From positions 23,114,558-23,178,557 of the forward strand of contig NC_030388.2 in NCBI RefSeq assembly GCF_001625215.2: a stretch of DNA of 64,000 nucleotides, in the 5' to 3' direction. The stretch comes from Daucus carota subsp. sativus (lineage: Eukaryota; Streptophyta; Magnoliopsida; Apiales; Apiaceae). This document shows, piece by piece, positions 10,426 through 43,235 of this stretch. A program made the translations under genes and the position numbers. Under the pieces are notes generated by a model. It did no database searches, was not told the DNA's origin, and saw nothing but the letters and a program-made list of their open reading frames with translations. Position 1 is the stretch's first letter. Each line of letters begins with the position of its first letter.

Positions 10426-10465
<40 letters not shown>

Positions 10466-10794: not shown

Positions 10795-10809
10795 TCTATA
10801 AATAGATAG
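10795..10809 (+). other. Candidate Helitron 5' terminus
   Basis: TCTATAAATAGATAG preceded by A resembles the plant Helitron 5' consensus (TC followed by an A/T-rich motif). It lies between rps10 and the Rep/helicase gene. The motif is short and low-complexity, so the call rests mainly on position. Confidence 0.35.
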
Positions 10810-10990
10810 ATACTCCTCCCATTTTAGTTGGTAGATTACACCCATTGCCCCTCTTCAGCATTCTATTCACGCCTCATGCCATTCAGATTTAGCTATTTTT
10901 TCCCAAGACTCACGTGTCATGCCAGCACCCACGTGCCTTACTTTCAAAACTGCGGAGGCTTGCTACTTTTTTGTTTTTAATATGTTTAAA

Positions 10991-10999
10991 TTTGGCGGG
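10991..10999 (+). promoter_or_regulatory. Possible E2F site upstream of the Helitron Rep/helicase gene
   Basis: TTTGGCGGG fits the plant E2F consensus TTTSSCGS and lies about 190 bp before the proposed start codon. E2F sites drive S-phase genes. One match of this length is expected by chance every several kb, so support is weak. Confidence 0.25.
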
Positions 11000-11191
11000 T
11001 GGAACTGCTGGGTAACGTAGCGAACCAATGGCTAATGCTTCTATTCAGATGGACCTCAATCTTTATGTATATCTAATCATAATGCAGCATATTTGCATTT
11101 TGAATTTCAAATTCAAAAGCACGAGCTTCTTTTTTCTCTCCATTTTTCTTCGCCGAGTCAGTGAAAGTCGACACTTCAGCTGGAGAAATTC

Positions 11192-14100
11192 ATGGACGAT
11201 GTAAGTTTCATTGTAATGTTATTATTCAAGTTGCTTTGCCGTTTTCCCTTAAGGCGTCAACTCTCATAAGGATTATTTTATTATACAAAACCTGTGTTCG
11301 GTTTTTCAGCTTAAAAGGGGATGCCGTCATTATTCTGATGTTGCTTCTGATAACAGGGATGGAAAAGGTTACAGATTTAACTTCATTCTGCTACATTTTT
11401 TTATGTCCCCCATGTGTTTGATTTTATTTCAGAGTTAATTTCTTTGCACTCATTTACAGGAAAAGCGCCTAGGACGCCCTTCACTGATCTGACAAACTTA
11501 ACAAACTGCTCTTCTCTCAAATCGTCTTTCGATGCCATACACTCAGATCACCGGGGTGCTGTCTCAGCCAATGTGTCTAAAAAAGGTATGATTCTTATGT
11601 TTTCCACGTACATCGACCTTTTAAATTGTTATGCGTTTCACTCAGGTATAAAGCATAGGCCTCACACCGTCTTTTTTTTGTCCACTATAAAAGTCAACAT
11701 TATTGTTAGTACTAAAAAGGGATTGGCTGCTGCATGCGCTGATTGTGTTTCTAGATCTCCTGGTTCCATTGATTTATTCCACAAGGTTTGTTCCTTGCTG
11801 TTTTCAAACATGTGCACTCACTTAACATTCCATAAGATTTAGAGTTCAGAAATAACGTTCAGATTGTTGTTTGCTAGGCCAATGTTCATCTGCCTAGCAG
11901 AGGTCTTTTCTCTTCTGAAAACAATAATGGTAAACAGCTCCTTATTCATAATTAAATCAAATTGGTATTATGCATAATTAATTTGTTAAATCGTGGAGCT
12001 CCTTATGAATCACATAATTATGCTCATGCATCTGTACCAATTAACCTATTATTTGAGTCCTTTTTTATGATTCAGTCAACAGCACAGCTACTCCTCTGCA
12101 AAGTTGCTTGAGTGATGATATTCAGCGGTTTAATACTAAACCAAATTCCAGTACGAACTTCTTGATCCTCTCTTTATTTCCTCAGTTTAGATTACTTTTG
12201 TTAGAGAACCATATTATTTCCCAGGTGTGCAGCCTAAGAGAAGGAAGGCAGCTGATGATGAGCATAATGTTCATCCGCAGCAGATTTTTAAACCAAGAGG
12301 AAAGAAATCTAAACTTCACATGGCCAAGGATCTTAGTTGTTTTACCACAAACATTCCAGGCAACCAGACATATCCAGTTCATGCTTCTGTTTTGTCCACT
12401 CATCTTGATGACGGTATTTGCGACACTGAGAAATGAAATAAATATATACATACTTGATCTAAGCTTAACATTCTTATGCTTTATATTCAGGAGAATCCTC
12501 ATTCATTGCAGATGACCAAATGTGTGACCACTTTATTACCGATCATGGTGTTTACATAATCTTTTACTCTGAATTTATCCTTGGATTAATATAAGGCCAC
12601 ACTCCAGTACAGTTTTTTATGTTTCTGTGATTCTTTGGCTCAATGTAGATAACTTTTCTTACATCATATATTATTGTACAGCTGTGCCGGGTAAGAGAAG
12701 GGAGCCAGCTGATGATCAGCTGGGTGTTCATTCGCAACAGATGCCTAAACAAAGAACAAACAAATCTAAACTCCACGTGGCTGAGGATCTTAGTTGTATA
12801 ACCAGAAACATTTTAACCAATCAGACAAATCCACTTGATGATTCTGTTTTGTGTACTCATCTTGATGACGGTGTGTGATTCTCTTACCAGAAAATAATAA
12901 ATTGCTTATACATAAATACTACTCCCAATTTAGATGCATAAATGCAGTAAACTGAACATTGTTATGGTTTATATTCAGGAGAATCCTCATTCATTGCAGA
13001 TCATCAAGTGTATGATGACTTCCTTGGCGATGATGGTATTGTCTGTTTTTCTTGGACTATTGTTTTCTTACTGTTACATAATATTTCAACTCTCTCTAAC
13101 GCTGTGCATTTAAATTAGATTATTCCGAACATGACGAGGAATTTAACTCCAGATATGATAAAAATCTAAAACCTGGTATCAATTTCCAAAAAACTAATCT
13201 ATTTTTTTTCAAATTTTTTAGATTTCAATTAAGTAACACCATCCCAATGTTATGCAGTTCCAGAAGGGTATGGTTTCCTAGGTCCACCTACGGGGAAATG
13301 TGTCAAATGTCAATCTATAATGTGGCCTGAGGAGAGATCTAATAAAGGTGTCAAAAAGGCTTTGTTCAAGTACACTATATGCTGTGGCAATGGTAAAGTC
13401 AAGCTTCCACCGGCCCCAAGAACACCATCATATCTTTGGCAACTTTACAATGATCCAATCAAAGGTCCTCACTTTCACCGTAATACACGGGTATATAATA
13501 CTATGTTTGCCTTCACATCAACTGGTGGCAATGTCGATACATCTATAAATAGAGGTGGATCGCCTTACATTTATAAGTTGAATGGTCAAACCATCACCTT
13601 TTTGGTTCCTTGATTCCAGATGAAGGGAAGGATCCCAAATTCTCACAACTATATATCTACGACACTGCTAATGAGGTTCAAAACAGAATGAGGTGGATTG
13701 AGGTTGATCGTTCTGATGAAATTGATCAAGAAATTGTGAGCGGTCTGATTGTAATGTTGGATGAAAAGAATGAACTTGTGAAGAAATTCCGAACTGCCCG
13801 TGACAGGTTTGAAAAGGATAATGTTGTTGAATTGGATATCTTTCTGAAGGTATCTAAAGCAACTGATGGGAGGGAAAATCGACCTGGACCTTCAAACGAA
13901 GTAGCTGGAATCTTGGTCGGCGATCAAGAGGAGACTGATCAGAGCCGTGATGTGATAGTTGATGAAATCAAATTAGGATTACAAAGGATTCCCAACATTC
14001 ACCCTAAATTAATGGCGTTGCAATATCCTTTACTTTTTCCTAATGGTGAAGATGGGTTCCACCTAGGATTAAAATATGAGGCAACTGAAGAGCAGCGTGG

Positions 14101-17100
14101 TAAAACAAGAGAAAGCATCACCTTGAAGGATTATTATGCATACAGACTTCAGGTCAGGCACAATGAAGGTATGTATTTTATAATATTTCCCAACTTTTGT
14201 TATTCTTTGTATACTTGCCTATTCATATCTATTTTGGTTCTGTAGGCATGTCGCCAAGACTTGGTGGACGACTGTTTCAACAGTATATTGTAGATGCATT
14301 TTCTACAATTGAGCAGGCCCGTCTATGGTGGTACAGAACTCATCAGACCACTCTAAGGAGTGAGTTGTACAGTCACATATGCGATACTATACGATCTGGT
14401 GATCTAGATAAAACTAATCTTGGAAAGAGTTTCATTCTACCAGCGGGCTATGTTGGATCAAAGCGATATATGCAACAGAATTTCCAGGATGCTCTCGCTG
14501 TATGTCGACACATTGGTCACCCAGATATTTTCCTTACAATGACATCAAATCCTATGTGGCCAGAGGTTATTGAGATGATGAAGCTGATTCCATATGGTAC
14601 CCCTGTCGACAATCCAGATATCATTGCTAGAGTATTTAAGCTAAAACTTAATCAGCTGCTCCATGATATACGACAAGAAAGTTTCTTTGGAACATGCATT
14701 GGAGGTATAATGTTCAGAGCATACATTAGTTTCTAAACATGTGCTCTATTTATCATTAAATTTCTTTGCCTTTGCTTATTTTGCTTTCAGTTATGTATGT
14801 TGTTGAATTCCAAAAGCGCGGTCTGCCTCACGTTCATATGCTGATATGGCTTGATTCAGAATCGAAGGTAAAATTGAAAAGAGATGTTGACAAATTCGTT
14901 TCAGCTGAAATACCTGATCCACAGATTGATCCAGCTGGTTATGAAGCTGTCAAACAGTTTATGATCCATGGCCCGTGTGGTCCTGAATTCCCAAAATCTC
15001 CCTGCATGGTTAATCACAAGTGTTCTAGGCATTTTCCCAAAAAGTGAGTACAAATTTTAGATTACCACTTCCCAACTAACAAAACCTGCATTACTCGAAT
15101 GTTATTACCTAACTTTTTCTGACTAACCATAATCAAACAGGTATGCAAATAGCACAACTTTTGATGATTCCGGTTTCCCCGTGTACAAGAGGACGAATTC
15201 TGGGATTACAGTTAAAGTTAGAAACGCGCAGCTGGATAATCAATGGGTTGTCCCATATAACAGAGATCTTCTGGTAAAATACCAGTGTCATATCAATATC
15301 GAAATATGCTGTCATGCTCGCAACATAAAATATTTGTTTAAATATTGTTTGAAAGGTCCTGACAGAGCAACTATTGAAATTCGTGGTTCCAGAGTGACCC
15401 AAAAAACAAAGCCAGATGACCCTGTAGACGAGATTCAACAATATTTTGATGGAAGATATATATGTGGAGCTGAATCTGCATATCGTACCTTTGGTTTTGA
15501 CATACATTATAGGTCAATATCCGTTGAGCGTTTACCTTTCCACCTTCCAGGAAAACGTTCGTGCACATGGAGATCAGATGAACCTTTGAAGAAGGTTGTA
15601 AACAGAGAAAAATCACGCAGAAGCAAGTTGGAGGCATTCTTTCATCTCAATACCATTGACCCTAATGCCAGGGAGTATACATACGATGAAATTCCAAAAC
15701 ATTATGTCTGGCACGATTCTCTGTGTTCTTGGAACCCCCGTAAAAAGGGATTCCAAATAGGGCGATTGACCTACTGCCACCATAGTAGCGGCGATGTCTG
15801 GTATTTGCGTATGCTTCTCTCCCGGATAAAAGGACCAGTTTCATTCGAGGCTCTAAGGACAATAGATGGAAAACTGTACAATTCATTTCAGGAAGCTGCT
15901 AACCATTATGGTTTTCTCAATGATGATAATGAATGGCATGAGGTTATTGCAGAGTGTGCAAAATGTGGGTTTGCAGCCCAGATCAGACAACTTTTTGTTC
16001 ACATCATTGTCAATAGCCAGGTGAACGATATTTTCAAACTATGGTCTTCACATATTGAATCTTTGACTGATGATATATTACAGCAACGGCGGAAAAGCAC
16101 TGGCAATCCCTTACTCATTCTCAGTGACGAGGAGATTCAAAACCATGCTCTTGCAGGTATAAAATAAAAACTACATTTCATTAAATGCCCCGGATGATAT
16201 TATGCCTCATAACTTCTTCTGTTCTCATTTTCAGATGTTCATAAGTTGTTAAAGGCTGTTGGAAAGAGTTTGTCTGATTATCCAATGCTACCACAACCTC
16301 CGCCGATTTATCTGAATATAGGAACAAATAATCTCATACTGGATGAGACAAACTATGATGTTGTTGCCATGCAGAACGAATTTGACAAACTGATTGAGAA
16401 TTGCAATGAAGATCAGATGAAAGTTTTTGAAGAAATAATTACTGCTGTCGAGAAAGAACAGGGTGGTGTTTTTTTTGTTTATGGTAGTGGTGGCTGTGGG
16501 AAGACATTTCTGTGGAGAACTCTGATACACAAGTTACGATCACAGCGTAAAATTGTGTTGCCAGTAGCATCATCTGGAATAGCTGCAACTCTTCTTCCAG
16601 GTGGCCGTACTGCTCATTCGCGCTTCAAAATTCCTATCATTCTTGATGATTTTTCTGTCTGCAATATAGCACACGACTCTGATATTGCTGCACTTATTAA
16701 AGAAACAAGTTTGATTATATGGGATGAAGCACCAATGACTCATCGCTACGCGTTTGAATGTTTGGATCGTACACTACGTGATTTGATGAAATCAGTTGAT
16801 CCACAAAGATATCATCAACCTTTTGGTGGAATAACAATAGTTTTTGGTGGTGATTTCAGACAAGTCCTTCCCGTAATTCCATTTGCCTCTCGTGCAGATG
16901 TTGTCAATGCCAGCATCACCCGATCTCGGGTATGGAAATTTTGCAAGGTATTTACACTGAATCGTAACATGCGCTTAGGCCAATCAGATAGTGAAGAGAG
17001 GAATGAGGTTCTGAGGCAGTTTGCCAAATGGGTTTTATCTATTGGTGATGGTTCATTTTCAAATGTAGATAAATCAAAAGATGGCATCACTGAGTTTGAT

Positions 17101-17868
17101 ATTGATCTGCCTGATGGCTATTGCAACATGTCAGATTCAAACTCCGTTGAAAAAATTGTTGATGCGGTGTTTCCTGACCTTCAAAAAATGTACCATTCTC
17201 CACAGTATCTTGCCGAAAGAGCAATCCTTACGCCAACAAACAAAACTGCTGCTGAGATAAACTCTGTGATTGTGGATAAATTGCCAGGGGAAGCAGTATC
17301 ATACTACAGCCGAGATGAAGCTCAGGAGTTTGGTGGATCTGAATCTGATTTTCCTATGTGTTTTCCATCCGAGTACTTGCACAATTTTAATATGCCTGGT
17401 GTTCCTGCTCATGAGCTGATACTGAAGGAAGGTGCAATGGTAATGTTAATGAGGAATCTTGATCAAACAGTGGGGCTGTGCAACGGAACCCGGATGGTAG
17501 TCACAAAATGCCTCAAACATTCTGTGCAGTGTGAGGTTATATGTGGATCCTCTGCTGGCCTGCGTTTTTTTATTCCAAGAATCGAGTGTTGTCCCAGTGA
17601 TACCAAGCTCCCTTTCAAATTTATTCGGAATCAGCTCCCGCTACAAATTTGTTATGCAATGACAATCAACAAATCACAAGGACAATCCCTTTCATTTGTT
17701 GGTTTATATCTTCCGAAACCTGTTTTCAGTCATGGCCAATTATATGTTGCCATCAGCCGTGTTACTTCTCCTGAAGGGCTACGAATTTTCATAGATGACG
17801 ATCTGGGCAGATGTAGTCGCAGAACAGAAAATGTTGTGTATCCGGAGGTATTTTATAGTTTAAGATAG
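11192..17868 (+). CDS. Helitron Rep/helicase (RepHel) gene with one 1-bp frameshift
   Basis: Sixteen exons: 11192-11200, 11310-11367, 11460-11585, 11646-11785, 11878-11929, 12076-12150, 12225-12413, 12491-12547, 12682-12870, 12979-13035, 13119-13175, 13258-14168, 14246-14704, 14791-15044, 15141-16156, 16235-17868; most junctions are phase 1. Exons 12-14 encode the Helitron-like N domain and the HUH Rep motif (GLPHVHMLIW; His codons in 14829-14837). Exon 15 has the paired catalytic tyrosines (KYLFKYCLKG; codons at 15331 and 15343). Exon 16 is a Pif1-type SF1B helicase with Walker A GSGGCGKT (16483-16506), Walker B IIWDEAPM, GDFRQVLPV, and the C-terminal TINKSQGQ and YVAISRV motifs. One base is missing near 13590, breaking the frame; everything downstream is open. 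It performs rolling-circle transposition: strand nicking and joining by Rep, unwinding by helicase. Confidence 0.9.
12225..13035 (+). repeat. Tandem duplication of an exon pair inside the Rep/helicase gene
   Basis: Exons 12225-12413 and 12682-12870 are both 189 bp; exons 12491-12547 and 12979-13035 are both 57 bp. All four are phase 1 at both ends. The translations align without gaps: KRRKAADDEHNVHPQQ with KRREPADDQLGVHSQQ, HLDDG shared, and GESSFIADDQ with GESSFIADHQ. The Asp- and Lys-rich modules are therefore an in-frame internal repeat of the protein's N-terminal region. Confidence 0.88.
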
Positions 17869-18801: not shown

Positions 18802-19545
18802 ATGAATGAACTCCAAAACTCACCTCCAACCAAGAAGCGGAAGATTTGTACTTCGATGTCACCGCTGATTTTGCTTGATGTTGATATCATTCTGAAAATA
18901 TGTTCTCTGCTGCAAGAAGATGGTTTCATTGATCTGTTCTTCTTCATTCAGGTCTGGTTCCCTTTTCAAACTTCGGAGACTCTGGCGACCCTGCTCAACA
19001 ATTTAGATTGGAGTAGAGTTCATGAGGTAGTTGAACCGTTTAAAAATCTCGAATGTAGGGTTTTCAACAACTTTGTCAAGCACAGTGCAGAGATTGGTGT
19101 CAAAGGCGCTATGTGCTATGTCTCCTGTAAGAACCTGATTAAAGCAAAAAATCCTCAACATCACCTACAAATCTTGAAAAGCATATCAGCTCATGACAGT
19201 ATGTCCTTCCTTGCTTACCACATTTTCCACACTCTCTATCACCCATCCACACTCCGTGAAAACGCTGTCATTCTGCATGCCAAGTGTGCTACTGATTCAG
19301 AATTTAGGGCCAAAGTTGAAAAGAACTGCACTACTCTGAAAGGACGTTACAGAAAGTACAATTGCAACCGGTATTATCGCCCAGACATCTTCCCCCAGAA
19401 TGGTGTATGCTCCTCTTTTGTTTCTGGGGAGGATCATAATATGGATGTTTTTGGTCTTGGTTGTTCATACAAGGAGATTGTCAACTCCTCTTGCTCGGAA
19501 TGCATGATTCTCATGATGAACTTCAAGATTTTCCGAGGTTATTAA
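18802..19545 (+). CDS. F-box-like protein (At2g35280-like), copy 1
   Basis: Intronless, 247 aa. After a basic KKRK start comes an F-box-like segment (LLDVDIILKICSLLQEDGFIDLFFFIQV, residues about 22-52), then a helical region with ALIA-type features (GAMCYVSCKNLI, HDSMSFLAYHIF) and a Cys-containing end (SCSEC). The same order is seen in the paralogue at 30861-31565. The family assignment rests on this overall pattern, which recalls plant F-box proteins of the At2g35280 type; the F-box itself is divergent, so SCF (Skp1-Cullin-F-box) function is unproven. It lies just downstream of the Rep/helicase gene, in the same direction, within the proposed Helitron cargo. Confidence 0.6.
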   Translation: MNELQNSPPTKKRKICTSMSPLILLDVDIILKICSLLQEDGFIDLFFFIQVWFPFQTSETLATLLNNLDWSRVHEVVEPFKNLECRVFNNFVKHSAEIGVKGAMCYVSCKNLIKAKNPQHHLQILKSISAHDSMSFLAYHIFHTLYHPSTLRENAVILHAKCATDSEFRAKVEKNCTTLKGRYRKYNCNRYYRPDIFPQNGVCSSFVSGEDHNMDVFGLGCSYKEIVNSSCSECMILMMNFKIFRGY

Positions 19546-20679: not shown

Positions 20680-22168
20680 TCATATATCTTCGTCCCCTTC
20701 CAAAACTCTGATTCTGAATTGATCATAAGATAATGCTGGGCATTCAAAGATACATATATTTCCAACACTCAACTCCAAACCATCACACAGCATTTTCCAC
20801 CCATCTTCAATTGTCGCACAGTGATGGTCGTCCCGTTTCCTTATTAGAAGTCTCCAACAGCAAGTTCCCGAATAGATGTTAATGTACTGAAAGTTGTGCC
20901 AATCCTCGAACAAGTCCTTGAATTCATTCGAGATCTCCTGTGGAAATACAAAACCGTATAAAGACGTAATACCAGAAATATTTTCAAAGGCTAATTTCAA
21001 ATAGAAATTACACATAAGATCTACTTACAACAGCAAAGCAGTCATCGCGCAGGTGCTTATTTTCAACAGTAATTTGAAAATAATTGCTCAACAACGGATA
21101 CGAACCATTTGCATCTAAAAAGAATAATTGTCAAGAAAAATAAATGCATGAAATAACATAAATCGGTTACAAGAATCACGTCAAGGCAATGAACGGGCTT
21201 ACCCATGCAAAGTGGTGTCCCTGGGAAGAGTATCTCATTTTTCTCGTGATCAAATGCAGAAATGAAAATCATTTCACACCCATCATAGGTGAACAAAAAA
21301 AACTGCAAAGAACTCATACTATGGGTTCCTAATATATCAAACATTTTTCGCAGACCACTGAGTCGACAACTTTGTGAATTATATGAACCAACAATTTTTT
21401 TCCCATTACGAAGAACAAATATGATACGATCAGGTAGGGATTTCCCGCAGCAATCAATAAATCCCTCAGGAGGATCCTAAAATATAAAGCAACATGGTTA
21501 CATACCATAATTCCTAACTACATTTGGGGAAAGTTATACATAGGCTTACAATTTCATCAAAAACCATTTCCCCAGAAATATAATTGCTGACAAATCTCCA
21601 GCCACCATCTACCAGGTTTACTGCAAAATAAGACACAATAATATAATTACTTTACTTTCATATGTCTAAGAAATATACCAGGCTTCTAAAGGCAGTTAAC
21701 CTCTTCTCGGCAAACACTGTTGAAGACAATGTACTCTGCTTGGGTACTCAATCTCTGAACCATTAGCCCCAATTATGTAAACGTTAAAGTTCAAACGTCC
21801 AAAATATTCAAAAAGAAGCAACTCCCCCCCCTTTAAGCTCCAAGTCCTTATAAAACCACAAAAAACCCTTTATTTCACATTTCAGTAAATCAAGTTGAAC
21901 GCGTAGAACATATCCATTGCGCATTTTTACTTCCATTGATTCTTCCAATAATTCAACATATTTCGAGCAGAACTGCGCCGGAATTTTCTGTAATAAATTA
22001 GGTTAGTTTTTTTCGAAAAAAACATGTTACAACTATAAGCAGAACAAGTACGATAATCTGCTCAAATTTTATAAAAATTACCAGTGTATTTGACGAAGTG
22101 TCTTTGCGATTCAACAGAATGAGGAATTTATCAGCTACTATACCGCTACACTCAATAGACCTAAACAT
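20680..22168 (-). pseudogene. Three-module B3-domain protein, copy 1, with a 1-bp frameshift in a G run
   Basis: Exons (minus): 22168-22082, 21987-21701, 21620-21550, 21476-21203, 21114-21029, 20937-20680. The last exon is a typical B3 (REM-like) DNA-binding domain: ...CCWRLLIRKRDDHH, EDGWKMLCDGLELSVGNICIFE, ending FRIRVLEGDE. Exons 2-3 and 4-5 are two related upstream B3-like modules (GGELLLFEY; SLQFFLFTYDG). Exon 2 is 287 bp, one more than phase requires; the extra base is in a run of eight G (coding strand) at about 21824-21831, where seven would keep the frame. It could be a real lesion or a homopolymer sequencing error. Structure matches the intact gene at 40538-41900 exon for exon. Likely nuclear DNA-binding if functional. 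Confidence 0.75.
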
Positions 22169-31565: not shown

Positions 31566-32184
31566 CTTAATCGGAGAAGCAGCAGCTTAACAATTACGTA
31601 TATGCCCTTATTATTAGTGTTTTCATCATTTCGTAGAACTGGGCTTTGTATTTTTATTAGGTCACTATGATATTTTGACTATAATACAATCCTACATTTT
31701 CAATTATGCTTAAAAATATATATTCCTTGCAATTTCATAGGGAAATTACATAATTAAATGGACCTAATTTTCACAACTATATTTAATTAATTACGGGTTA
31801 GGCATAAAACATAATTCTTTATTGAATGTATCATAGAACTAAACATTTTAAATAAATCATTAATATAAAACTGAAAATATTTAGAAGGCGCAACAAAAAC
31901 AACGGTAATGGTCTTTAAATCTGGACCCAAAAGTTCAAGTAAAAGTATAAGAAGAAACTATTTCACGAACAACTACATTGATTCTTTTTTTCAACAAATT
32001 TTAGATACCTAAAATAAAATAATTTCTACCCACATGTTGCTTTCAATGCAGCCAAAAACCATTTTGGAAGTCATTCAAAAATTTAAAAACAAAAAAACAA
32101 TAGCAACAGATACATAATAATGAATACTATTGAATATATCGCTTGAACTACTAATTCAGATTTAACTCAAACCAACCATATTAC

Positions 32185-32432
32185 GGGGCCGTTTGGCTGA
32201 GCTTAAAATAAGTGCTTCTTGCTTAAAATAAATAAGTGGAGTAGAAGTTAGAAGTCAGACAAGACTTATAAGTGATTAAAGTGTTTGGCAAATAAGCAGA
32301 AGTTCTGAAACAGAAGCTAGCATTCCTAGCTTTTTATAAGTGCTTCTTGACTTATTACAGAAACAGTACGAAATAAGTGCTTCCAACTTATAAGCCCAGA
32401 AGTCGGCTTAAAAGCCGTAGCCGAACACCACC
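32185..32432. mobile_element. Foldback MITE with GGGGCCGTTTGGC / GCCGAACACCACC ends
   Basis: The ends are imperfect inverted repeats (ggggccgtttggctgagctt with the complement of ggcttaaaagccgtagccga). The interior is rich in aataagtgctt-type motifs on both strands. Relatives sit at 42677-43051 and 58505-58739. A target duplication could not be fixed. Confidence 0.65.
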
Positions 32433-32674
32433 TACATGACCCCATTGACTTTGGAAAAAATATTAGATAGTTCATTCACTACATAGCTACATGACACGTT
32501 TTAAAATTTTTTGTCATGAAAATCTAAATTAAATAATATAAAGAACATATAAAACAAATTAATAAAAATTCAGAAGTACAAGGGCAATGCACCTAAAGTT
32601 GCTTGCCTGGATTAAAATAACTCATCTGATTTCAGATAAAAATAGTATACAACATAAGAATAACTATCTATCCA

Positions 32675-33046
32675 CAGTGTTACAAAAATCGGGGATCGGA
32701 CCTAATCGGTTGAGCTACCGATTCAGGGATTAATCAGAAATCGGGGATTAATCAGAAGGATTAATCAGAGTGAAAATCGGATTTATTTTTATATTAAAAT
32801 ATTATTTAATATTCAGTTATCATTATCTTAGCTATTTAGTAACTAATATATTTACTATATTCATAAACTCTATAATTATTCATATTTAAAGTAATATAGT
32901 ATTTTAATTTTAATAATTTTTCATATATACTTCTATTAAGAAATATATATAAGGATTAATCGAATTTCAAAAATCGAATCGGTGGCCGACCTTTCAGGGG
33001 ATTAATCGGGAATTTATCGGTTAAATCGGGGATTTTTAGAACACCG
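32675..33046. mobile_element. hAT-like MITE with 8-bp target duplication
   Basis: A 372-bp AT-rich element bounded by CAGTGTT...AACACCG terminal inverted repeats, extended as caaaaatcgg/ctaaaaatcc. It is flanked on both sides by TCTATCCA (32667-32674 and 33047-33054), an exact 8-bp target duplication as hAT elements make. It contains repeated aatcggggatt motifs. Confidence 0.85.
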
Positions 33047-33237: not shown

Positions 33238-34341
33238 ATGGAGATGACCTATCTTCATGATCTACACTTGCACCAAGATTCCAACTTAAACATTCAAGTT
33301 GCAGTAACAAGAAAATGGACGGAGACTGATTCAGCTGAACGTGTTCAAGGGATCAACCTAATCGTCGTTGACAAATATGTAACCACTTCTTTTGTTCAAT
33401 AGCTAAATATTAGACAGATCTTTTGTATTTCCAAACTATGTCTGATTTCATGTGGTTTCAGGATAATCGCCTGCACTGCTGGATACCTTCGGAACTTGTG
33501 AATACTTTCATAGACAAGTTTGTCGAAGGATGTCATTATGTCATCAACAACTTTTCAGTCGAGCAATTCAACCAGAAAGATCGTTGTTTTGAGGCGGAAA
33601 TTCATATTGTTCTACATAGCGAGACTGCTATAACAGAAATGCCAACAAGCTACAGTCAAATTCCTAAAGACATTTTCTGTTTCAAAAATTTGAAAACAAT
33701 CCTCGAATCTACTCAAGCACATGACTACTTAATCGGTGAGTAAATATTCCATTAAACTTGGTTAGTCATAAGTTACTTCTCAATATTTAACCTGTATTTT
33801 CCTAAAAAAGTTTATTCCTATTCTTACCAAAGATTTAGTAGGTATTGTTGAAGATCTCAAACCTATGGAGCCAGTGAATGGTCCTGCTTTTGAAAAACAT
33901 TTCTACATAGAATTTGTTTTGACTGATCTAATGTAAGTCCTCTTCCGCCTTTATCAAAATTGCATTTTTCGATATTTATATGTTAGTTTCTAAAAAAATG
34001 CTTCCATATATATCATAACAATAGTGATCGTGTACGGGTGCGTCTGTGGGACCGTTGTGCACTCCAATTCCAAAAACAAGTCAATGATAACAGGGGCAAG
34101 CCTTCAATTATCACTATTTCAAGCTGTAAGATCATAAAAAATCAGTACAATGGAGAAACAACCATAAGGACCGTTAAAGCAACACGGACTTTCCTCAACT
34201 ATCAAACTGAAAGAGAGGTTGTTCTCAGGAAAAGGTAATTTTCTCATAATTGAATACATCAAATTTTCGTTCATTATAATTATGTTCATGCTCATTTTTT
34301 CTAATCCTTATAGGTTCTGGGAGATAAATGGATTTCAGTAG
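33238..34341 (+). CDS. RPA1-like ssDNA-binding protein, short form, copy 2
   Basis: Model: join(33238..33378, 33462..33735, 33833..33932, 34025..34234, 34314..34341), 250 aa, intact. OB-fold pattern: IQVAVTRKWTETDS, GINLIVVDKY, LHCWIPSEL, EGCHYVINNFSVEQF, then LVGIVEDLKP, ITISSCKIIKNQYNGE and TFLNYQTERE. No zinc domain. Exon lengths 274 and 100 bp and the phases match copy 1 (24655-25765), and both end in a tiny last exon, so the two are duplicates of a two-OB-fold ancestor. Probable role is ssDNA binding in the nucleus. As part of the proposed Helitron cargo it could protect or recruit to single-stranded transposition intermediates (inference). Confidence 0.86.
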
Positions 34342-34934: not shown

Positions 34935-37629
34935 ATGGGGTTCATCAGCCACACACCGATCACAAGTTTGAATTCTTCTACCATAAAATGGACTATAAAG
35001 GCAAGAGCGCAAGCTGTTTGGAAAGGAATCACTAGAGAAACTAAAGAATTCAGAGGCTTAAACATTTTGTTGGTTGATGACTCTGTAAGTGCATTAATTT
35101 CTTCAAAAGTTCTTTACATCTTAGTCGTACATGAACTACTATCCACAGATATATACATGATTTGTAATTTTTACCTCCAGCGTACCCGTATTCATGCGTT
35201 TATTGCCGCCAAGTTGGCACCACTTTTTGAAAAGGAAATCGTCGAAGGAGAAATCTATCAGCTAACAAATTTCATAGTTCAAGATTATACCGGAATGGAA
35301 TTTAACAGATGCGTTCGTTTTGATAAACATATCTTCTTCTCTCATTACACAAAAATGGAACAATGCGCATCAACAACTTTAACTATACCAAATCCGGTCG
35401 TGGATCTCTTCTCTTTGAAAGATCTTCAAACAATGGAAGAAGATAAGCGTTTCCTTTGTGGTACTTTCTGCAAAACTGAAACTCTTTAACTCAATGCATG
35501 GTAAACTGTAGACCTGTTTTAGGTCACACAAATATGATAACTCATTTTAAATATATAAAAATAATGAAGATGTCTGCGGAGTTCTTAAAGATCCTCAGGA
35601 TTTTAGAGACTACATGAATGATAGCGACGAGGCAAAACAACAGAAGAAATTTACGTTAACAGATGGAAGGTCTGGCTATTACTGCATGCAAAATTTGTTA
35701 GCTTTCATGTTTATATATGTTCCAATAACATTATGATGAATTCTAAACAATTTTTATCCATGTCACAGCACGGACGTAGGCGTTACACTATTTGATGATC
35801 TGGCTAAGATGTTTGAAGAAGCCATCAAGAATATAACTACTGGAAATATTGTGGTGATTCTCAGTAGTGCAAAGATTGGGAAGTTTCAAGGTAACATTTT
35901 CCCTAACAGACTGCGTACATTAAGGATATTTATTCAGCGTAGAACACTATTACAAAATTATTCACTAATTGTTTTGGATTGTTAGAAGCAAAACCTGATC
36001 AATATATTATCTGTTATTTAGGTGATGTTAACCTAACAAATTATCCAGCAACAAGATTTTATATTAATGCTGATCACCCAGCAGTGAAGAGATTGCAAAC
36101 AAGGTTTTGAACATGCTTCTCAACAATGCCATTCGAATTCAAATCCTTAACAATTTATTATGTTTTGAATATTTTCTTTACGACATATTTTTTCCACAAC
36201 ATACAACTAACAGGTCCAAAGATAAGACTTTTTTGGTAGAAAAGGAAGTCACACTCACTCAGTTAGAAAAAGTTGTTATCGAAGATATGTCGATTGCCGC
36301 TATAAAAAAAATGAACAAAGAGGTACAACATATTTCCAAAATTTTACGTGTGCTCAGCTAATGTTCATATAATGTTATTATACTATTGATTGTGGACATG
36401 CAGGCCAAGGTTAATTGCAAAGTTACTGTTAAAAAAATTGAAGAGCATTTAAATTGGTTCTTCTACATCTGCATAAAATGCAACTTAGAGCTCGAACTCA
36501 TTGATGGAAGATACAAATGCAGTGGATGCAGTCGTTTCTTTCCTTGGCCACAAAAAAGGTATTTTTTAATTTAAACATTTAATTCAATATTTAGTTTTTA
36601 TGATACAAACTACAATTTGACGTGTCCATTATTACAGATTTAGAGTCTTTGCCCTTTGCTGTGATAAAACTGGTGTCTTGCCTTTAATGCTAGCTGATCG
36701 CGAGATAAGACGTCTAACGGGGAAGATGGTTTTCGACGTAGAGTTGGATCTAACTGAGGTTTGACTAATTTCCTAATAATTATAAATTTAAATTGCTGCT
36801 TGCTTGATTATTTTTCATTAATATCTTTGAGGTCGGGAAAAAATTTAGGAGCCAGGCGGGAATTTCCCGCTTATACTAAAAAATATGCTGAACAAGGAAT
36901 ACAATTTGACATTATCAATTAATCAAGATAATATATCCAAAATGAGTGAAGTTTATGAAGTCTGTGACATACTAATGGATGCTCAAGATAATGTTGGAAA
37001 TATCAAACATATGGAGCAAATGTCCGAAGAGGCGGAGGATGACCAAAATTTACAGGTAAATATTATCCCATTATTATTTTCTAAGTAGTAAACAGTAATT
37101 ACACATTATGATTTCTCAAAATAACGTTGTTGTTGGATACAATGGCAGGACATGGATGCTGAAACAGAAGGCTCGCATAATGTTTCGAAGCAACAAAAAA
37201 ATTCAGCCAAAACAGACAGACAGAAGAATGACAACGCAGGCGTGATTTCATCACAGAAATCTTCATTCAACCGAGAAAAAGCTATCAAGATTAAGAAGGT
37301 TGTGTGGAATTTTAGGCGGTTGCTCTATATATTAATTGTTCACAGTTTAACAGGTTTACATAACATTTGCACAGGAAAAGAATCCGATCAAGGAAAAAAA
37401 GACAGTTCGTGCAAGGGAGCAGTCAAAGTTGGCACCCAAAAAAAAAGGAAGGAAGCTAATCGAAGTCATAAGCGAGAGTGAGGATGAAGACATGACATTA
37501 AACAGCTACCAACTAAAGAACAAAAAACAGGTAAACTATTAATCATACCTTAAATCTTACATAATCCATTTATCGAACATGAAAACTTCAGCTTAATTTA
37601 TTAAACAGGGGAGCAAAGGCAGTCAGTAA
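34935..37629 (+). CDS. RPA1-like protein, long form with zinc-binding C-terminal domain, copy 3
   Basis: Twelve exons: 34935-35084, 35181-35460, 35570-35669, 35769-35890, 36022-36103, 36214-36322, 36404-36558, 36638-36758, 36849-37055, 37149-37298, 37375-37530, 37609-37629; 550 aa, no stops or frameshifts. Two N-terminal OB folds (GLNILLVDDS, EGEIYQLTNFIVQDY; then DVCGVLKD, VVILSSAKIGKF, ATRFYINAD) precede an RPA1 C-terminal OB fold with a CxxC...CxxC zinc site (CIKCNLELEL...KCSGCSRFF) and VFALCCDKTG, LMLADREIRRL. The acidic, Lys-rich tail (SESEDED, PKKKGRK) could hold a nuclear signal. Full RPA1 minus the N-terminal protein-interaction domain. Likely binds single-stranded DNA; a trimer with RPA2/RPA3 is possible. 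Confidence 0.88.
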
Positions 37630-38025: not shown

Positions 38026-40181
38026 ATGTCTTTATCAGATTTTAACTGTTTGTCCGACCTCACTGCCGGATCTTTCAACTGGAAAATTAAGGTTCGAATC
38101 ATAAGAAACTGGAAGGGGATTTCAACGTCGGGTGATAGTTGGAAAGGAATAAACCTTCTTTTTCTTGATGATAAGGTTTGAAATATATTTTTTCCTATCA
38201 TAAATATTTTCTATTATATCATTCTGTGCCAAATACAAATCATAAAAACATATGTTATATTATGCAATTTTTTCATACAGAATTTTAGGATGCATGCTTT
38301 TGTGCCCGGAAAGGTTTTTGAAGAGCAGGAAACAAAGCTCAAAGATGGAAATATATGCATCATTTCAAACTTTACCATAAAAGAATACGATTCCTCTGAA
38401 AAGTTTAGATGTGTTAACCATGATAAACAAATTATCCTAACCAACTTCACTCAGATTGAAAAAGTAGACCTTGAAGATGGATTGATCCAGAGAAACATGT
38501 TTGATTTCTACGATCTTATCCAGTTAGAAAACATTGCAGACCAGAACCTCTATCTTACAGGTGATAATACTATTCTGTGACATATCTTATTTCCTACAAA
38601 GTTAATTTCAAACATAAAATACTAAATTCTTTATTCTATTGCATCTCTAGATGTTGTTGGTATCATAGAAAGAGACACACCCATAGGTGATTTGGTAAAT
38701 CGCTTTGGAAAAAAGCAAAAACAAGTAAAGTTCAACATTGTCGATGGCAGGTAATGATTCGGCCGTAAGGTAGATTATTATACCACACATAATCATAGAA
38801 ATATAATTTGACAAAATATCTCCTATTTTGAAGAACATCTGTAAATGTTTGTTTTTGGGATGCTATGGCTGAGAAATTCAACGAGGCAATCCAATGTGTT
38901 GAAGAGTATCCAACTATAATCATCATAGCAAGTGCAAAAATAACCTCATGGCAACCACCAAGGCAGAATTCAAAGCAATATGAAGTGGCAAATGTGACAG
39001 CAACAAAATTCTACATCAATTATGAGGATGAGAGCGTGGCGGTTTTAAGGAAAATGTAAGTTCATTACATATACTCCAACCTATTTGAAATATATATCTA
39101 AAAAATTCAATTATGCCGAGCATTTTTTTAAACAGGTATGCACAGGGGAAGTTTTCCAAATACAATTTCGTGAATCACGTTAAGCAAAAAGATGAAACAC
39201 TTACATTGGCTGATGTGAAGAAACTACCAATAAATTATGCTGAGGTAAAAAGCATACTATTATGTTCATAATCCTTCAGGTTATAATTCTATAACATTTA
39301 ACAAAAATGTCGTTTTCCAGAAAGAGATTATCTGCAAAGTTAAAATAAAAAAAGTCTTGGAGACGGGAGTATGGTTCCGCTACCACTGCACTTCATGCTA
39401 CAAAATCATTGAGATGAAGAATGGAACTCTAAAGTGTTATAGATGCTCTGATAGAAATGTGCCAGAACCAGATTTAAGGTATACAATTACTACATAGCTC
39501 ATAACGTTATATTACGTTTTATACTTTAATATGTCATATATAAACTTCTACTGTCATACAAACTTAATAATGAAAACTATTAAAAAAACAGGTGGGAAAT
39601 ACATGTTCAGGCAGAGGACAAGACTGGAGAGATTGATATACTTCTTCTTGATCGTGAAATCAGGACTATATTCAATTTGGCTGTGATTGACTTCGATGAG
39701 GAAGTGAGTGACAGTTAGATTTTATTTCCTATTCAAAACTATTGTTTTATCTGTTTTATACAACATCCATGGTTGCTCTAAAAATAGGTAATACAAAACA
39801 CGAAAGTACCGCAAATTATAAAGGCCTTGGAAAACCAGCATTTCGCAGTTAAACTGGAGATTAAAGACTCTAATATTTTAAAACAGCTTGGTACATACTA
39901 CGCTACTGGCATTTATGCATGTCCAACAAACGACACTATAGCTGAAGAAGAACTCCTTACTCCCCAATCAACATTCCCAACGACAGTCACTCAGGTAATA
40001 AATAGGAAATGATTACAACATAATTATTTCTCTAAGGCTAATGAAGATATTTATTTATTTCCCACAGGATTCAGGTCCAAGCTATCATATCGAAGATTTC
40101 TCCGATCCAAACATCAAAAGCCCAGAGGTTGATAAGAGGCCAAAAAGAAAGAAAAAGCTCACCAAAAAATATTGCGAGTAG
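38026..40181 (+). CDS. RPA1-like protein, long form with zinc-binding C-terminal domain, copy 4
   Basis: Nine exons: 38026-38175, 38281-38560, 38651-38750, 38834-39055, 39136-39244, 39321-39478, 39592-39703, 39788-39994, 40068-40181; 483 aa, intact. OB folds 1 and 2: IKVRIIRNWKG, GINLLFLDDK, DGNICIISNFTIKEY; DVVGIIERD, TIIIIASAKITSW, ATKFYINYEDE. C-terminal zinc OB fold: YHCTSCYKIIEM and LKCYRCSD, EIHVQAEDKTGEIDILLLDREIR. Exons of 150, 280, 100, 109 and 207 bp are the same length as in copy 3; one intron (after KFQ in copy 3) is missing here. Ends in a basic tail (KRPKRKKK). Role as for copy 3. Confidence 0.88.
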
Positions 40182-40537
40182 ATATATGAGACTATTAATC
40201 ATCTAAAGAGCACATCAAGTTTGAGTCTGTAAGTTTGAAGATATTCATTCCTATCTTATAAGATTATTGATTTACCATGATGTACTAAGATTCAGCAGCA
40301 AAGTCTTACCATATTTACATAATTGTTTTGATTAATACTTCAGGAAATTATAGACAATTCAACACAAACAGAGCAAATTAATTTTCCCAGAAAAACATCT
40401 AATAAAGATTGTTAAATGCACACGGTTTACCTAGCTATAATTCGTCATCAGAGCATAACCAATCAAAAATAACATCAGACACAAACTAACATATCTTCTA
40501 ATCATCACACCACAAAGATTTTAATACAACATCACCT
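40182..40537. other. Spacer between convergent RPA and B3 genes
   Basis: AT-rich 3' flanks. Nothing else seen. Confidence 0.4.
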
Positions 40538-41900
40538 TCAAACATGATGCCTATATACCTCACAATTAAATTTAAAATTCGAACCTGCCCTCCTGAAAAC
40601 ACAGATATCGCCAGGCAGCAATCGCAGAGATTTCCACAGCAAAGTCCACCCAGTATGGAGTTCAACCCTGTTAGGTCTCTTCTTCAACAGCACGTTCCAA
40701 GAATCATTACCATGCTTTATTTTAATAAATCCATTACAATCAATCTTGGACAAAAGGGACTTGAACTTTGCAGGAATTGTCTGAATATTATTGTTCAATT
40801 AACCCGTATCAGTAACAAAACCAAAATCTAACCAAATACTCAGAAGTTCAATAACAAAACTTACCACCCCAAAATCATACTCTAGAAGATGAGATGGCTT
40901 CAGTTCAACTTCAAAGAAATCACCAGAATCACCTAAATATTGAAATTAACAAGAACAATAAGATAGTATAAAAAACAATGTAACACTAATAGAGAAACAG
41001 TTTCAATTCAATCCTTACTGTTCACATTCTTTGGCATACAGTCTTTTCCAAAAGCATTCACAACAAACAAATCAACTCCAAGGTATGTGAAAACCAGGGG
41101 CTCAAAAAATGACAAGTTATAGAACTTATAAACTGGTTGCAGACCAGTTATGGTGCCATCCCCTTTATCATAAATCCCCCCTAAGAAACTGCCGTCGCTG
41201 ACTTGGAATCTTATTTCACGAGGAATTTGAGATCCATACTTGGAAATAAATTCCTCAGACAATCTCTGAATTGGGATTTTAACTGTTTAGAACCTCTCCG
41301 AAAATAACAAAAGGAAAAATATCTTCACATAAGTTAAAAATTATAAACAGTTTACCAAAGGTTCCCACTTGCTTGACAAATTTGGGTAGATTCTAATAAA
41401 CATGCACTGAAAGGGAGAAGCAATTCCTGAAAACATAAATATATTCAGTACATTATACACACTTAGGACAAATTAAACAAGTTGTAACCACATACCGGAT
41501 ATCCCATGCAAATCATATTTTACATCTAACAGAAACACTTCAAAATTAGGCCCTCCAAGGTACTTGAAATAAAAAAACTGACATTCTTTAGGGAGCAACT
41601 TTGACAAAAGAGCATGCATGTCAAAGAAACAGCCATCTTCGGCTGAGAACTTGATTGAAAACCTTTGCTCATCCATTGTCTTAATATTTACAATCTCAGG
41701 CAACAAACCCCCAAACCGATCAACAAATCCTCGGGGAAGAAACTGAAAACAAACGATGCATTGGTCTTACTAAAAAACGTAGAGAAAGTAATACAAGTGA
41801 GAAAAACATGAGCCAATACCAATTTCTGTGGGAGACTGCCTTTCGGGAAAAATATCAAAGCTTTCAAGAAATCCACAGGATACCTCATTTCAGGTTCCAT
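40538..41900 (-). CDS. Three-module B3-domain protein, copy 4 (intact)
   Basis: Exons (minus): 41900-41820 (81), 41742-41496 (247), 41426-41356 (71), 41265-41019 (247), 40932-40865 (68), 40780-40538 (243); 318 aa, no lesions. The last exon is a B3 domain: IPAKFKSLL, WNVLLKKRPNRVELHTGWTLLWKSLRLLPGDICVFRR, FNCEVY. Exon pairs 2-3 and 4-5 have matching lengths and phases (0 to 1, then 1 to 0) and related content (FLPRGFVDRFGGLLPEI / LSEEFISKYGSQIPREI; FFYFKYLGGPNFEVF / LVFTYLGVDLFVV). The gene therefore arose by duplication of a two-exon B3 module. Plant REM-type B3 proteins bind DNA in the nucleus. Convergent with the RPA gene at 38026-40181. Best reference for the broken copies at 20.7, 26 and 28.2 kb. 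Confidence 0.78.
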
Positions 41901-42251
41901 ACCTAAAATCCAAAAAAAAACAAATTACAGGACAACCAGTTGCTTTCAGAAAACAGATTGGAAAACAGTACTTTATTCAACAACATACAAACCCTGAGAT
42001 TTCTGAAAATAGGTAAAATGAGATTGTTCGGAGAGGAACTTTTACCTAAGTCTGAAGAGAGTATACTCAATCTGGAACAATTGCTTCTGATTTACAACAT
42101 TAACTGCTGCCAGTTATGGCCCAACAAAGCTGTAAGATTAATCACTCCACTGCGTTACGGCTTCCAAGAATAGTGTTGTAATAAAAGTCAAACTTATTCA
42201 ACATCAAAACTTTACGCAGATATTTGTAATAACTCTGTTTTATTTTAGAGT

Positions 42252-42412
42252 AGTGCTAAGTGCACATAATTGTGTACAAAAAATAGGTATGTGGCAAGTG
42301 ATGTGGTGGGTTTTAATTGGACTGGTTAGTTTAAATGCAGGGGAGGCGTCCAATTAAAATCCGCCATGTGTTATGTACATGTTTTTCTACATAATTATGT
42401 GCACCAAGTATT
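42252..42412. mobile_element. Small palindromic MITE
   Basis: The ends are inverted copies: agtgctaagtgcacataatt at the left and aattatgtgcaccaagtatt at the right, with tgtacaaaaa/tttttctaca inside. About 160 bp. Target duplication unclear. Confidence 0.7.
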
Positions 42413-42676
42413 TTCCTTTATTTTATTCATTTCATACATTCCATAAATCATAATCATATGTTTGAGATGAGCTTAAAAACAAAATAGCGACGGAATTTAA
42501 TACTTTGGTTTCAGCTTCTATTTCATTATTCATTTAGGTTTTATAAATTAACTTCTCAAGCTGTATTTTGCTAAAAGAAAAAAAAAATTCATCTTTTCCC
42601 AGAATTTATAAAATTTAATATTAAAAAAAATTTATTTACAAATATAAATAGTCTGTTAAAACAATGCCAACATTAT

Positions 42677-43051
42677 GGGGGCCGTTTGATTTAACTTAAA
42701 AGAATTTACTTATTGCTTTTAAGTGATTTCTTGATTAAAAGTGATAAGTAATTTTGTACTTATTAGCAATTTAAGTGTTTGGATAAATTCATTAACATTC
42801 ACGACTTATTAGGTATAAAAATTGCTAAAATATTATAAAATATCTTTTACAATTTTCATACAAATCATTGTGAACTTAATTTTCAAAAAAAAACACATAA
42901 GTCAAAAAAAAAGCTAGCATTTCCAACTTCCAAAAATCCAGCTTACAAATCGACAGAACTGATTATAATTTCTTTAACAAAACACTACGAAATAAGTAGA
43001 AGTTGAATTGTAAGATAGAAGCTGGGCTTAAAAGCCCAGCCAAACACCACC
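42677..43051. mobile_element. Foldback MITE, second member of the GGCCGTTTGG family
   Basis: Begins gggggccgtttga and ends agcccagccaaacaccacc; the last 20 bases read back as ggtggtgtttggctgggctt. The interior is AT-rich. Same family as 32185-32432. Confidence 0.65.
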
Positions 43052-43208
43052 TATATTAGCATTCACTTTTGCATACTGTAACAAAATTTAAAGAAACTTT
43101 ACGTCCCTTAACATGTAATATAAGTAGTTCTACTAATCGCAAAATTTATTTTATTTCTAATATCATTTAAATATATAAGTTTTTGCCAAAAAAATATAAT
43201 AAATTAAA

Positions 43209-43235
43209 GCCCGCGGTAGCGGGCACAATCCTAGT
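43209..43235 (+). mobile_element. Helitron 3' terminus
   Basis: GCCCGC-GGTA-GCGGGC (43209-43224) forms a 6-bp GC stem with a 4-base loop in otherwise AT-rich DNA. Six bases (ACAATC) separate it from CTAG (43231-43234, fitting CTRR), followed by T (43235). This is the textbook Helitron end: subterminal hairpin, CTRR, insertion before T. Confidence 0.85.

Follow-up and report, generated by a model that had tools for sequence, protein, structure and literature searches.

A giant Helitron interrupts a dispersed repeat in carrot

Gene fragments are regarded as the main cargo of Helitrons. An earlier note on a 64-kb window of carrot DNA (the whole stretch that we analysed) had read a Rep/helicase gene, a Helitron 3' terminus and eleven cargo genes as a single transposon of about 32 kb, which raises the question of whether the ends and the genes at this locus belong to one unit, and whose genes they are. 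We found that positions 10795-43234 of the window (32,440 bp) are one complete Helitron of the form TC...CTAG, inserted between an A and a T (Table 1). Its 5' terminus has TC at 10795-10796, and its 3' hairpin has a perfect 6-bp stem and a 4-base loop and stands 6 bases ahead of CTAG. The note had placed the 3' terminus at 43209-43235; the hairpin and CTAG are there, but the T at 43235 belongs to the flank. Both strands of the 64 kb were scanned for a perfect, GC-rich stem of at least 6 bp followed by CTRRT, and this strict scan gave a single match, ending at 43234, in line with the note, which had noticed no other 3' terminus between RepHel and this end. The same scan on 10 simulated sequences gave one weaker match in each of three. 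Exact searches of viral and prokaryote collections did not find the 3' end. The Rep/helicase gene at the left (RepHel) was confirmed by profile matches to Helitron_like_N (1.5e-39), PIF1 (6.5e-90) and Pif1_2B (7.8e-19).

The element's two flanks together make up a single copy of a dispersed repeat, one half on either side. When the joined flanks were compared with the genome, 14 of the 38 matching places elsewhere spanned the A/T junction, and the remaining 24 matched the right half only. Both halves were present without an insert in 10 of 12 other copies when counted as rows of a multiple alignment, whereas only 5 of the 12 pairwise BLAST alignments carried across the junction. Next to the junction lies an indel-prone stretch, where the interrupted repeat lacks about 15 bp relative to most other copies. 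These empty sites are paralogous and lie within one carrot genome, where they provide the joined sequence, left of 10795 to right of 43234, that the note had proposed as a check. The genes in the window's outer flanks are copies of one another.

Table 1. Features of the element and its insertion site, in window positions
Feature	Position	Strand	Basis
Left half of interrupted dispersed repeat (target site), last base A	10762-10794	+	alignment of repeat copies
Giant Helitron, complete	10795-43234	+	ends, sister copies, interrupted flanking repeat
5' terminus common to the family, begins TCTATAAATAGATAGATACTCC	10795-10890	+	genome matches to 5' end
RepHel (HUH Rep and Pif1 helicase), one frameshift near 13595	13233-17865	+	profile matches; modelled exons, upstream exons excluded
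FBX1, 'F-box-like' protein 1, single exon, 246 aa, open	18802-19542	+	ORF, genome relatives
B3a, B3-type, frameshift in C run	20683-22180	-	B3 match under Pfam cut-off
Coiled-coil protein (CC), 2 exons, 190 aa, open	23400-24052	-	gene model, dN/dS
RPA1, two-OB RPA70-like, 5 exons, 258 aa, open	24655-25765	+	gene model, profile, dN/dS
B3d, B3-type, decayed	25940-27500	-	B3 match under Pfam cut-off
B3b, B3-type, single frame break plus single in-frame stop	28201-29700	-	B3 E 5.1e-8
FBX2, 'F-box-like' protein 2, single exon, 233 aa, open	30861-31562	+	ORF, dN/dS
Stretch missing from chromosome 1 copy	32184-33046		comparison with chromosome 1 copy
RPA2, two-OB RPA70-like, 5 exons, 250 aa, open	33238-34341	+	gene model, profile, dN/dS
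RPA3, RPA70-like with C-terminal part	34935-37540	+	exons modelled to 36764; tail exons seen to ~37540
RPA4, RPA70-like, 9 exons, 483 aa, open	38026-40181	+	gene model, profile, dN/dS
B3c, B3-type, open in four modelled exons	40538-41900	-	B3 E 1.7e-9
3' terminus: hairpin GCCCGC-GGTA-GCGGGC, ACAATC, CTAG	43209-43234	+	strict hairpin/CTRRT scan, genome-wide 3' ends
Right half of interrupted dispersed repeat (target site), first base T	43235-43390	+	alignment of repeat copies

Sister copies share the gene set and, in three of four, both ends

Copies with the same gene set are present on chromosomes 1, 5 and 9, at sizes of 35-58 kb. A 5'-end query from 10796 gave 15 genome matches, 14 of them starting at the first query base, and 3' ends with at most three mismatches numbered 18 genome-wide, against 0 for the reversed pattern; the comparison of copies covered all but 9 of these 5' ends and all but 12 of these 3' ends. 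The earlier note had pointed to other copies with both ends as a check, and both were located at five loci besides the window: the gene-bearing giants C9b (37,440 bp), C5c (34,922 bp) and C9a (25874156-25932310), and the short elements C5s and C3s. All five begin with TC and end with CTAG. A fourth gene-bearing copy, on chromosome 1 (C1), has the 3' end and is missing the first ten bases. C1 is collinear over the whole unit; its matching pieces have 73-98% DNA identity, with most of the long ones at 80-88%. On the right, its homology to the window stops at the 3' terminus, and on the left, where C1 is cut, it breaks off 11 bases inside the 5' terminus.

RPA, B3 and 'F-box-like' relatives recur between the same ends, which the note had named as a further check. 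The middle genes are reordered in two copies, and C5c has no match to B3d. Two matches of C9a, to RPA2 and B3c, were dropped because they look like paralogue cross-matches, the genuine genes lying beyond the part of C9a compared in that case. The frame is open at the site of the RepHel frameshift in the diverged copies C9b and C5c, whose RepHel pieces are free of stops; in C1, both RepHel and RPA3 contain stops. Some further apparent stops in the translated comparisons probably lie where an alignment passes through an intron. Taken together, and within this one genome, the ends, the empty sites, the copies and the recurring genes support one giant unit of about 32 kb, and we conclude that the window copy, the dispersed copies and the empty sites fit what defines a Helitron.

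The cargo genes

The element holds 11 cargo genes: four RPA70-like, four B3-type, two 'F-box-like' and one coiled-coil gene. The claim that several are free of lesions held for eight of them (RPA1-4, with RPA3 modelled to 36764, FBX1, FBX2, the coiled-coil gene and B3c), but three B3 genes and RepHel itself carry lesions. A profile of four RPA sequences matched RPA70 DNA-binding domains in the solved structures 4gnx, 8rk2, 1fgu and 1jmc (E 2e-11 to 5e-10), and the RPA4 sequence alone matched no solved structure. In Pfam, DUF223 was over the cut-off for RPA4, and REPA_OB_2 and Rep_fac-A_C were slightly under it. At the level of profile comparison, we regard the RPA match as firm. B3c (37.9 bits) and B3b (33.2 bits) scored over the Pfam B3 cut-off of 30.1.

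The label 'F-box-like' for FBX1 and FBX2 denotes a putative resemblance. The F-box identity proposed for these ORFs found no backing from profiles, in that none of nine 'F-box-like' members matched Pfam F-box; their sole recurring match was a weak one to NNH6 (5 of 9, best E 3e-4). An FBX1 profile gave no meaningful match to solved structures (best E 0.1), and the AlphaFold model of FBX1 is all helical but, with a pLDDT of 45, too poor for use. The coiled-coil protein had no profile match over cut-off. The stretch missing from the chromosome 1 copy probably consists of later insertions. A repeat within it is found again at 58564-58734.

CATGCA, which we take to be the RY/B3 site, is 1.8-1.9-fold over expectation in the window copy (C8w, 35 sites), C9b (45) and C5c (44), and 1.5-fold in C1. 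Four control stretches gave 2.3-fold in one and 0.7, 1.2 and 1.3 in the others. In the window, 11 of the 35 sites lie between genes, with no concentration there. The excess may hint at a target of the B3 proteins, and we treat it as a weak lead.

Selection on RepHel and the accessory genes

Across diverged copies (dS 0.7-2.2), dN/dS was 0.05-0.36 in RepHel and in all eight cargo genes tested, namely RPA1-4, FBX1, FBX2, CC and B3c; dS is near or past saturation, the alignments were picked by protein similarity, and the window is in every pair. For the window against C9b and C5c, the ratios were.05 for REP,.09 for HEL,.31-.36 for RPA1,.18-.26 for RPA2,.11 for RPA3,.10 for RPA4,.15-.23 for FBX2,.16-.20 for CC and.29-.30 for B3c. 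FBX1 gave.12 against C5c only, its comparison with C9b being saturated. Ratios against the young chromosome 1 copy were higher (0.10-0.53). From these alignments, we conclude that RepHel and the eight accessory genes are under purifying selection, which argues for a conserved accessory set and not for captured fragments. Because sister copies hold the same genes, most of them kept by selection, the cargo looks like the transposon's own toolkit and not like passengers.

Linkage of cargo-type genes to RepHel

Genome-wide, close RepHel genes (at least 80% amino acid identity; the next at most 67%) occur at seven loci, and all seven have RPA4-type and FBX1-type genes on the same strand. For FBX1-type genes (at least 55% identity), a same-strand RepHel lay within 40 kb in 12 of 14 cases, where chance would give 1%; the link fell to 15 of 38 for 'F-box-like' genes at 25-54% identity and to 1 of 13 under 25%. 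Among more distant RPA loci (31-50% identity), 45 of 55 lie downstream of a same-strand RepHel within 40 kb, a raw count without random control, and 34 of the 45 sit 5.6-12.7 kb from it. The few close relatives without a listed same-strand RepHel were C8:18405567 (3' end present) and C1:24373718 for the RPA4 type, and C5:24653962 and C8:11961737 (a 40-residue piece) for the FBX1 type. We conclude that a single RPA gene, 6-13 kb downstream of RepHel, is the usual arrangement in ordinary carrot Helitrons, and that in the giant lineage further genes sit in the interval.

Alternative explanations

The 3' end could have come from a short non-autonomous Helitron, with a 5' end of its own, that inserted beside an old host gene cluster, with RepHel an unrelated relic. 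Two short elements, C5s (11.2 kb) and C3s (13.1 kb), do share the family's ends; neither has RepHel or cargo, and one of the two holds host gene fragments. However, the sequences outside 10795 and 43234 are halves of one repeat copy, and copies on other chromosomes have the same 3' point and the same 5' end. The interrupted repeat and the sister copies already contradict this reading, and we rejected it as almost certainly wrong. A different possibility is that segmental duplications spread a host RPA/B3/F-box cluster that happens to include a Helitron gene, and whole, multi-exon genes with gene-like selection would suit it. Yet six left flanks compared with one another gave no cross match, and among seven right flanks there was a single match of 40 bp, at non-corresponding positions. 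An A precedes the 5' end in all six readable left ends, and the RPA4- and FBX1-type genes at all seven close RepHel loci also speak against duplication. A T follows the 3' end in 7 of 7, although it was built into the search patterns for most. Homology ends at the Helitron termini in the compared copies, which contradicts duplication; we rejected it as highly improbable. Neither a short Helitron owning the window's 3' end nor an RPA/B3 cluster without RepHel, the findings named in the earlier note as speaking against its reading, turned up in this one genome.

Cargo genes captured once from the host long ago, and kept inside a true giant Helitron by host selection and not through use in transposition, deserve more weight, since selection by itself is silent on the beneficiary, a few RPA4- and FBX1-type relatives stand without a listed same-strand RepHel, and distant 'F-box-like' genes are less linked to RepHel (15/38 and 1/13). 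Against a single capture, most RPA relatives at 31-50% identity themselves stand downstream of other RepHel genes (45/55), and FBX1-type genes are near a same-strand RepHel far more often than expected (12/14). We consider host capture unlikely.

A model for the giant Helitrons

We are confident that the window element is one of a family of giant, autonomous-type carrot Helitrons with selected accessory genes. As in other Helitrons, RepHel would nick the ends and peel off one strand. The RPA70-like proteins, chiefly RPA3 and RPA4 (dN/dS ~0.1), would coat and protect the single-stranded or circular intermediate, which at >30 kb would be unusually long, and aid its copying. The B3 proteins, whose genes lie on the opposite strand, may bind element DNA for regulation or de-silencing, and the 'F-box-like' and coiled-coil proteins may target host factors. 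The lineage would have arisen from an ordinary plant Helitron with RepHel and RPA, through the addition of genes in the interval from RepHel to the terminal RPA. Somewhat doubtful, though conceivable, is a broader proposal of phage-like modular Helitrons in more than one RepHel lineage, in which a RepHel core would carry a shuffled, selected accessory set (RPAs coating ssDNA, B3 proteins binding the element itself, 'F-box-like' proteins removing host silencing factors) to deal with host defence as well as with a giant ssDNA intermediate.

Plant Helitrons that combine RepHel with an RPA70-like gene (PHRPA) are known [Roffler et al. 2015, PMC4683698, in excerpt], and the carrot element shares with them, as excerpted, the TC and hairpin-CTRR ends, the A/T target, RepHel and the RPA-like ssDNA-binding gene. 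Compared with those elements, it has four diverged RPA paralogues and adds conserved B3, 'F-box-like' and coiled-coil genes; the three shortest of its family's complete copies with genes measure 32-37 kb. The excerpted review PMC6431247 describes maize Helitrons of up to 39 kb with up to nine captured gene fragments, and calls full-length gene capture exceptionally rare. These maize elements are likewise large, with several gene-derived parts inside Helitron ends, but they carry fragments, whereas the carrot element carries whole multi-exon genes that are common to diverged copies and under purifying selection. VANDAL MULEs with the anti-silencing protein VANC (PMC5735166, in excerpt) offer a possible analogy, in that a sequence-specific DNA-binding protein serves as accessory; they are another transposon class with another protein, and the role of the carrot B3 proteins is the one proposed above.

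In carrot and related plants, some of the genes called 'RPA', 'B3' or 'F-box-like' may belong to transposons. The family also offers a natural case of how a rolling-circle transposon manages a single strand of >30 kb, and of whether plant Helitrons supply counter-silencing proteins of their own. If our reading is true, whole accessory genes selected through deep divergence would make Helitrons genome-like mobile units.

Structure of the element

The earlier note had placed a Rep/helicase gene at the left of a possible giant Helitron of about 32 kb and a Helitron 3' terminus at its right, with no second 3' terminus noticed between them, and both observations were borne out. When both strands were scanned strictly for CTRRT preceded by a perfect GC-rich hairpin, the 64 kb yielded one match, ending at 43234; the same scan of ten simulated sequences gave one match each in three, all weaker than the window's. 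The 5' terminus is a TC at 10795-10796. The gene encoding the HUH Rep and Pif1 helicase (RepHel) matched Helitron_like_N (1.5e-39) and PIF1 (6.5e-90), and 967 aa of it aligned to LOC135148359 (Daucus carota subsp. sativus) with 100% identity. It has a single frameshift near 13595, where two related copies, C9b and C5c, are open.

Eleven cargo genes lie between these features. Splice models of four RPA70-like genes (RPA1-4; RPA3 to 36764 only), a two-exon coiled-coil gene (CC) and one B3 gene were all open, as were two single-exon 'F-box-like' ORFs (FBX1 and FBX2); the remaining three B3-type genes carry lesions. Solved RPA70-type chains matched a profile built from RPA1-4 (E 2e-11 to 5e-10). 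A tandem duplication with ~210- and ~110-nt copies (12211-13040) lies between the 5' end and the modelled RepHel exons. The chromosome 1 copy lacks 42248-42418 and 42547-43051 or has them shorter; these stretches, just inside the 3' end, look like small later insertions.

A family of giant copies

We searched a 441-Mb assembly of 11 contigs, in which the window is G000:C8:23114558-23178557. The first 405 bp, taken from the second base, had 15 genome matches, 14 beginning at query base 1 and one (C1) at base 11; six were paired with a 3' end (window, C1, C9a, C9b and the short elements C5s and C3s). The 27-bp 3' pattern with at most three mismatches had 18 matches, five paired with a 5' end (window, C9b, C5c, C5s, C3s), and its reversed control none. 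Other copies sharing both ends, which the earlier note had proposed to look for, were found in the gene-bearing C9a, C9b and C5c, and the same gene types recur between the same ends in the latter two. C1 retains the 3' end, and unrelated sequence replaces its first ten bases. C1 aligned to the window in pieces ranging from 73% to 98% identity, most of the long ones at 80-88%; for C9b and C5c, DNA identity was 64-80% in every aligned piece except one of 40 bp (90%). RepHel pieces of C9b and C5c contained no stops.

Loci of the giant family and their gene order (window positions for the window element, chromosome positions otherwise)
Locus	Position	Strand	Extent	Gene order or content
Window element	10795-43234		32,440 bp	RepHel, FBX1, B3a, CC, RPA1, B3d, B3b, FBX2, RPA2, RPA3, RPA4, B3c
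C1	24304823-24354799	minus	50 kb	Collinear copy of whole unit; order as window
C9a	25874156 to 3' end 25932310		58 kb	Genes seen outside 25913500-25929599; order as window in parts seen (last block: RPA4 and B3c only)
C9b	33022435-33059874		37,440 bp, both ends	RepHel, FBX1, B3a, B3b, FBX2, B3d, CC, RPA1, second CC, RPA2, RPA3, RPA4, B3c
C5c	31007573-30972652		34,922 bp, both ends	RepHel, B3b, FBX1, CC, RPA1, B3a, FBX2, RPA2, RPA3, RPA4, B3c (no B3d match)
C8b	RPA4-type gene 18405567; 3' end 18410828			3' end 3.6 kb behind gene; no RepHel among listed RepHel matches

Between copies, gene order is constant at the first position and in the last block and shuffled in the middle. The RepHel strand carries the RPA and 'F-box-like' genes, the opposite strand the B3 and CC genes. 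The RepHel search gave at least 121 matches, seven loci having at least 80% identity and the next 67% or less. All seven carry FBX1-type (at least 63%) and RPA4-type genes (at least 72% over exon 2; part of exon 2 in C4) on the RepHel strand; C9c and C4 are recognised by these three gene types on one strand. Because only the best candidates were scored (RepHel 119 of 282, RPA4 88 of 1012, FBX1 100 of 100), the search counts are lower bounds.

Insertion as one unit

We queried the joined flanks (195 bp left, 245 bp right), scoring the 40 best of 91 candidates. Besides the window itself, at least 38 places matched at 67-82% identity; 14 of the 38 crossed the A|T junction, and the remaining 24 matched the right half only. 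The empty-site check found its answer at paralogous sites in the same genome: among 12 of the 38 repeat copies in a multiple alignment, ten carried both halves with no insert between, and two (L045, L046) were too short on the left to tell. Pairwise BLAST with loose settings crossed the junction in five of these 12 and started to its right in seven. The window is ~15 bp shorter than most repeat copies directly behind the junction, where the copies also differ by indels. Since most aligned copies carry both halves uninterrupted, the best reading is that the two flanks are parts of a single repeat copy.

Comparison of the 400-bp left flanks, readable in six copies, gave no cross match at E <= 0.01; seven right flanks had a single 40-bp cross match at unequal places; homology between copies therefore stops at the element ends. 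We also considered segmental duplication, and homology ending at Helitron ends speaks against it. Within the window, parts of 1-10794 and 43235-64000 are copied in each other, many of them inverted.

Selection on RepHel and cargo

We estimated dN/dS by Nei-Gojobori counts on exon pairs, always including the window, in alignments chosen by protein similarity and covering the RepHel parts REP and HEL and eight cargo genes (all but B3a, B3b and B3d). Against C9b, dN/dS was 0.05 for REP, 0.09 for HEL, 0.23 for FBX2, 0.16 for CC, 0.36, 0.26, 0.11 and 0.10 for RPA1 to RPA4, and 0.30 for B3c; FBX1 was inestimable, its synonymous sites being saturated. Against C5c it was 0.05-0.31 across REP, HEL and the eight genes (B3c on three of four exons). 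In both comparisons dS near 1 or above (0.70-1.31 and 0.82-2.24) limits these ratios. The aligned C9b sequences had no stops, and C5c had a single stop each in FBX2 and RPA4. C1 gave 0.10-0.53 at dS 0.15-0.26; its RepHel contains four stops and its RPA3 one. We conclude that, at the level of coding sequence, RepHel and the tested cargo are under constraint. The four RPA genes are older than the copies, because RPA1-3 are 27-31% identical to RPA4, whereas RPA1-4 are each 55-81% identical to their C9b counterparts.

Origin of the accessory genes

Among 55 more distant RPA4 relatives (31-50%), picked by eye from the search that scored the best 88 of 1012 candidates and counted without a random control, 45 have a same-strand RepHel no more than 40 kb upstream, in 34 of these 45 at 5.6-12.7 kb, which is the ordinary plant arrangement. 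RPA4 is 23-53 kb downstream of RepHel at the seven giant-family loci. Using 65 of 70 FBX1 and 119 of 121 RepHel matches, with split pieces of one gene excluded, we found 12 of 14 FBX1-type genes (at least 55%) within 40 kb of a same-strand RepHel, against 1% at random places, an expectation resting partly on approximate chromosome sizes. The association was weaker for more distant relatives, which lay near one in 15 of 38 cases at 25-54% identity and in 1 of 13 below 25%. These positions tie the accessory genes to Helitrons, and the best reading of the giant lineage is a RepHel + RPA Helitron that has been expanded.

Further loci were observed. G000:C7:14845409-14878833 (minus) has, on one strand, a RepHel (64%), an RPA relative (50%) and 'F-box-like' genes (63% and 30%), and is possibly a second giant lineage. 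Groups of 'F-box-like' genes lie near RepHel of 52-58% identity at C5:25.78-25.85 Mb, C6:12.89-13.41 Mb and C9:22.91-23.02 Mb. G000:C8:15071031-15085557 is a tandem array of five evenly spaced distant 'F-box-like' matches, with no RepHel nearby among the matches listed. A public contig of 1,621 bp encodes a 479-aa RPA4 relative (P0015), which points to a spliced transcript from a related gene.

The short elements, C5s (11.2 kb) and C3s (13.1 kb), share their ends with the giant family and have no match to its cargo or RepHel proteins. Four C5s ORFs were scanned against Pfam: one matched WS_DGAT_C (6e-13) and adh_short (1e-6), a second weakly matched an ABC transporter model (0.006), and two had no match. 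This content looks like the usual fragment capture, and both elements are presumably mobilised in trans. They share an 895-bp segment of 94% identity and some shorter ones; the remainder differs.

Proposed mechanism

An element of this kind was absent from the titles and abstract openings searched (giant/autonomous Helitron, RPA, DUF223, B3, F-box, gene capture, carrot), a set lying mostly outside the subscription literature. Passages of PMC6431247 call Helitron capture of full-length genes exceptionally rare, and parts of PMC4683698 and PMC5735166 describe plant Helitron RPA and VANC, respectively.

Alongside the demonstrated unit, family, linkage and constraint, we propose that RepHel would drive the rolling circle while RPA proteins would coat the transposition intermediate. 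B3 proteins may bind element DNA; enrichment of the RY motif (CATGCA) in giant elements is a weak lead to such self-binding. The 'F-box-like' and coiled-coil proteins may act on the host.
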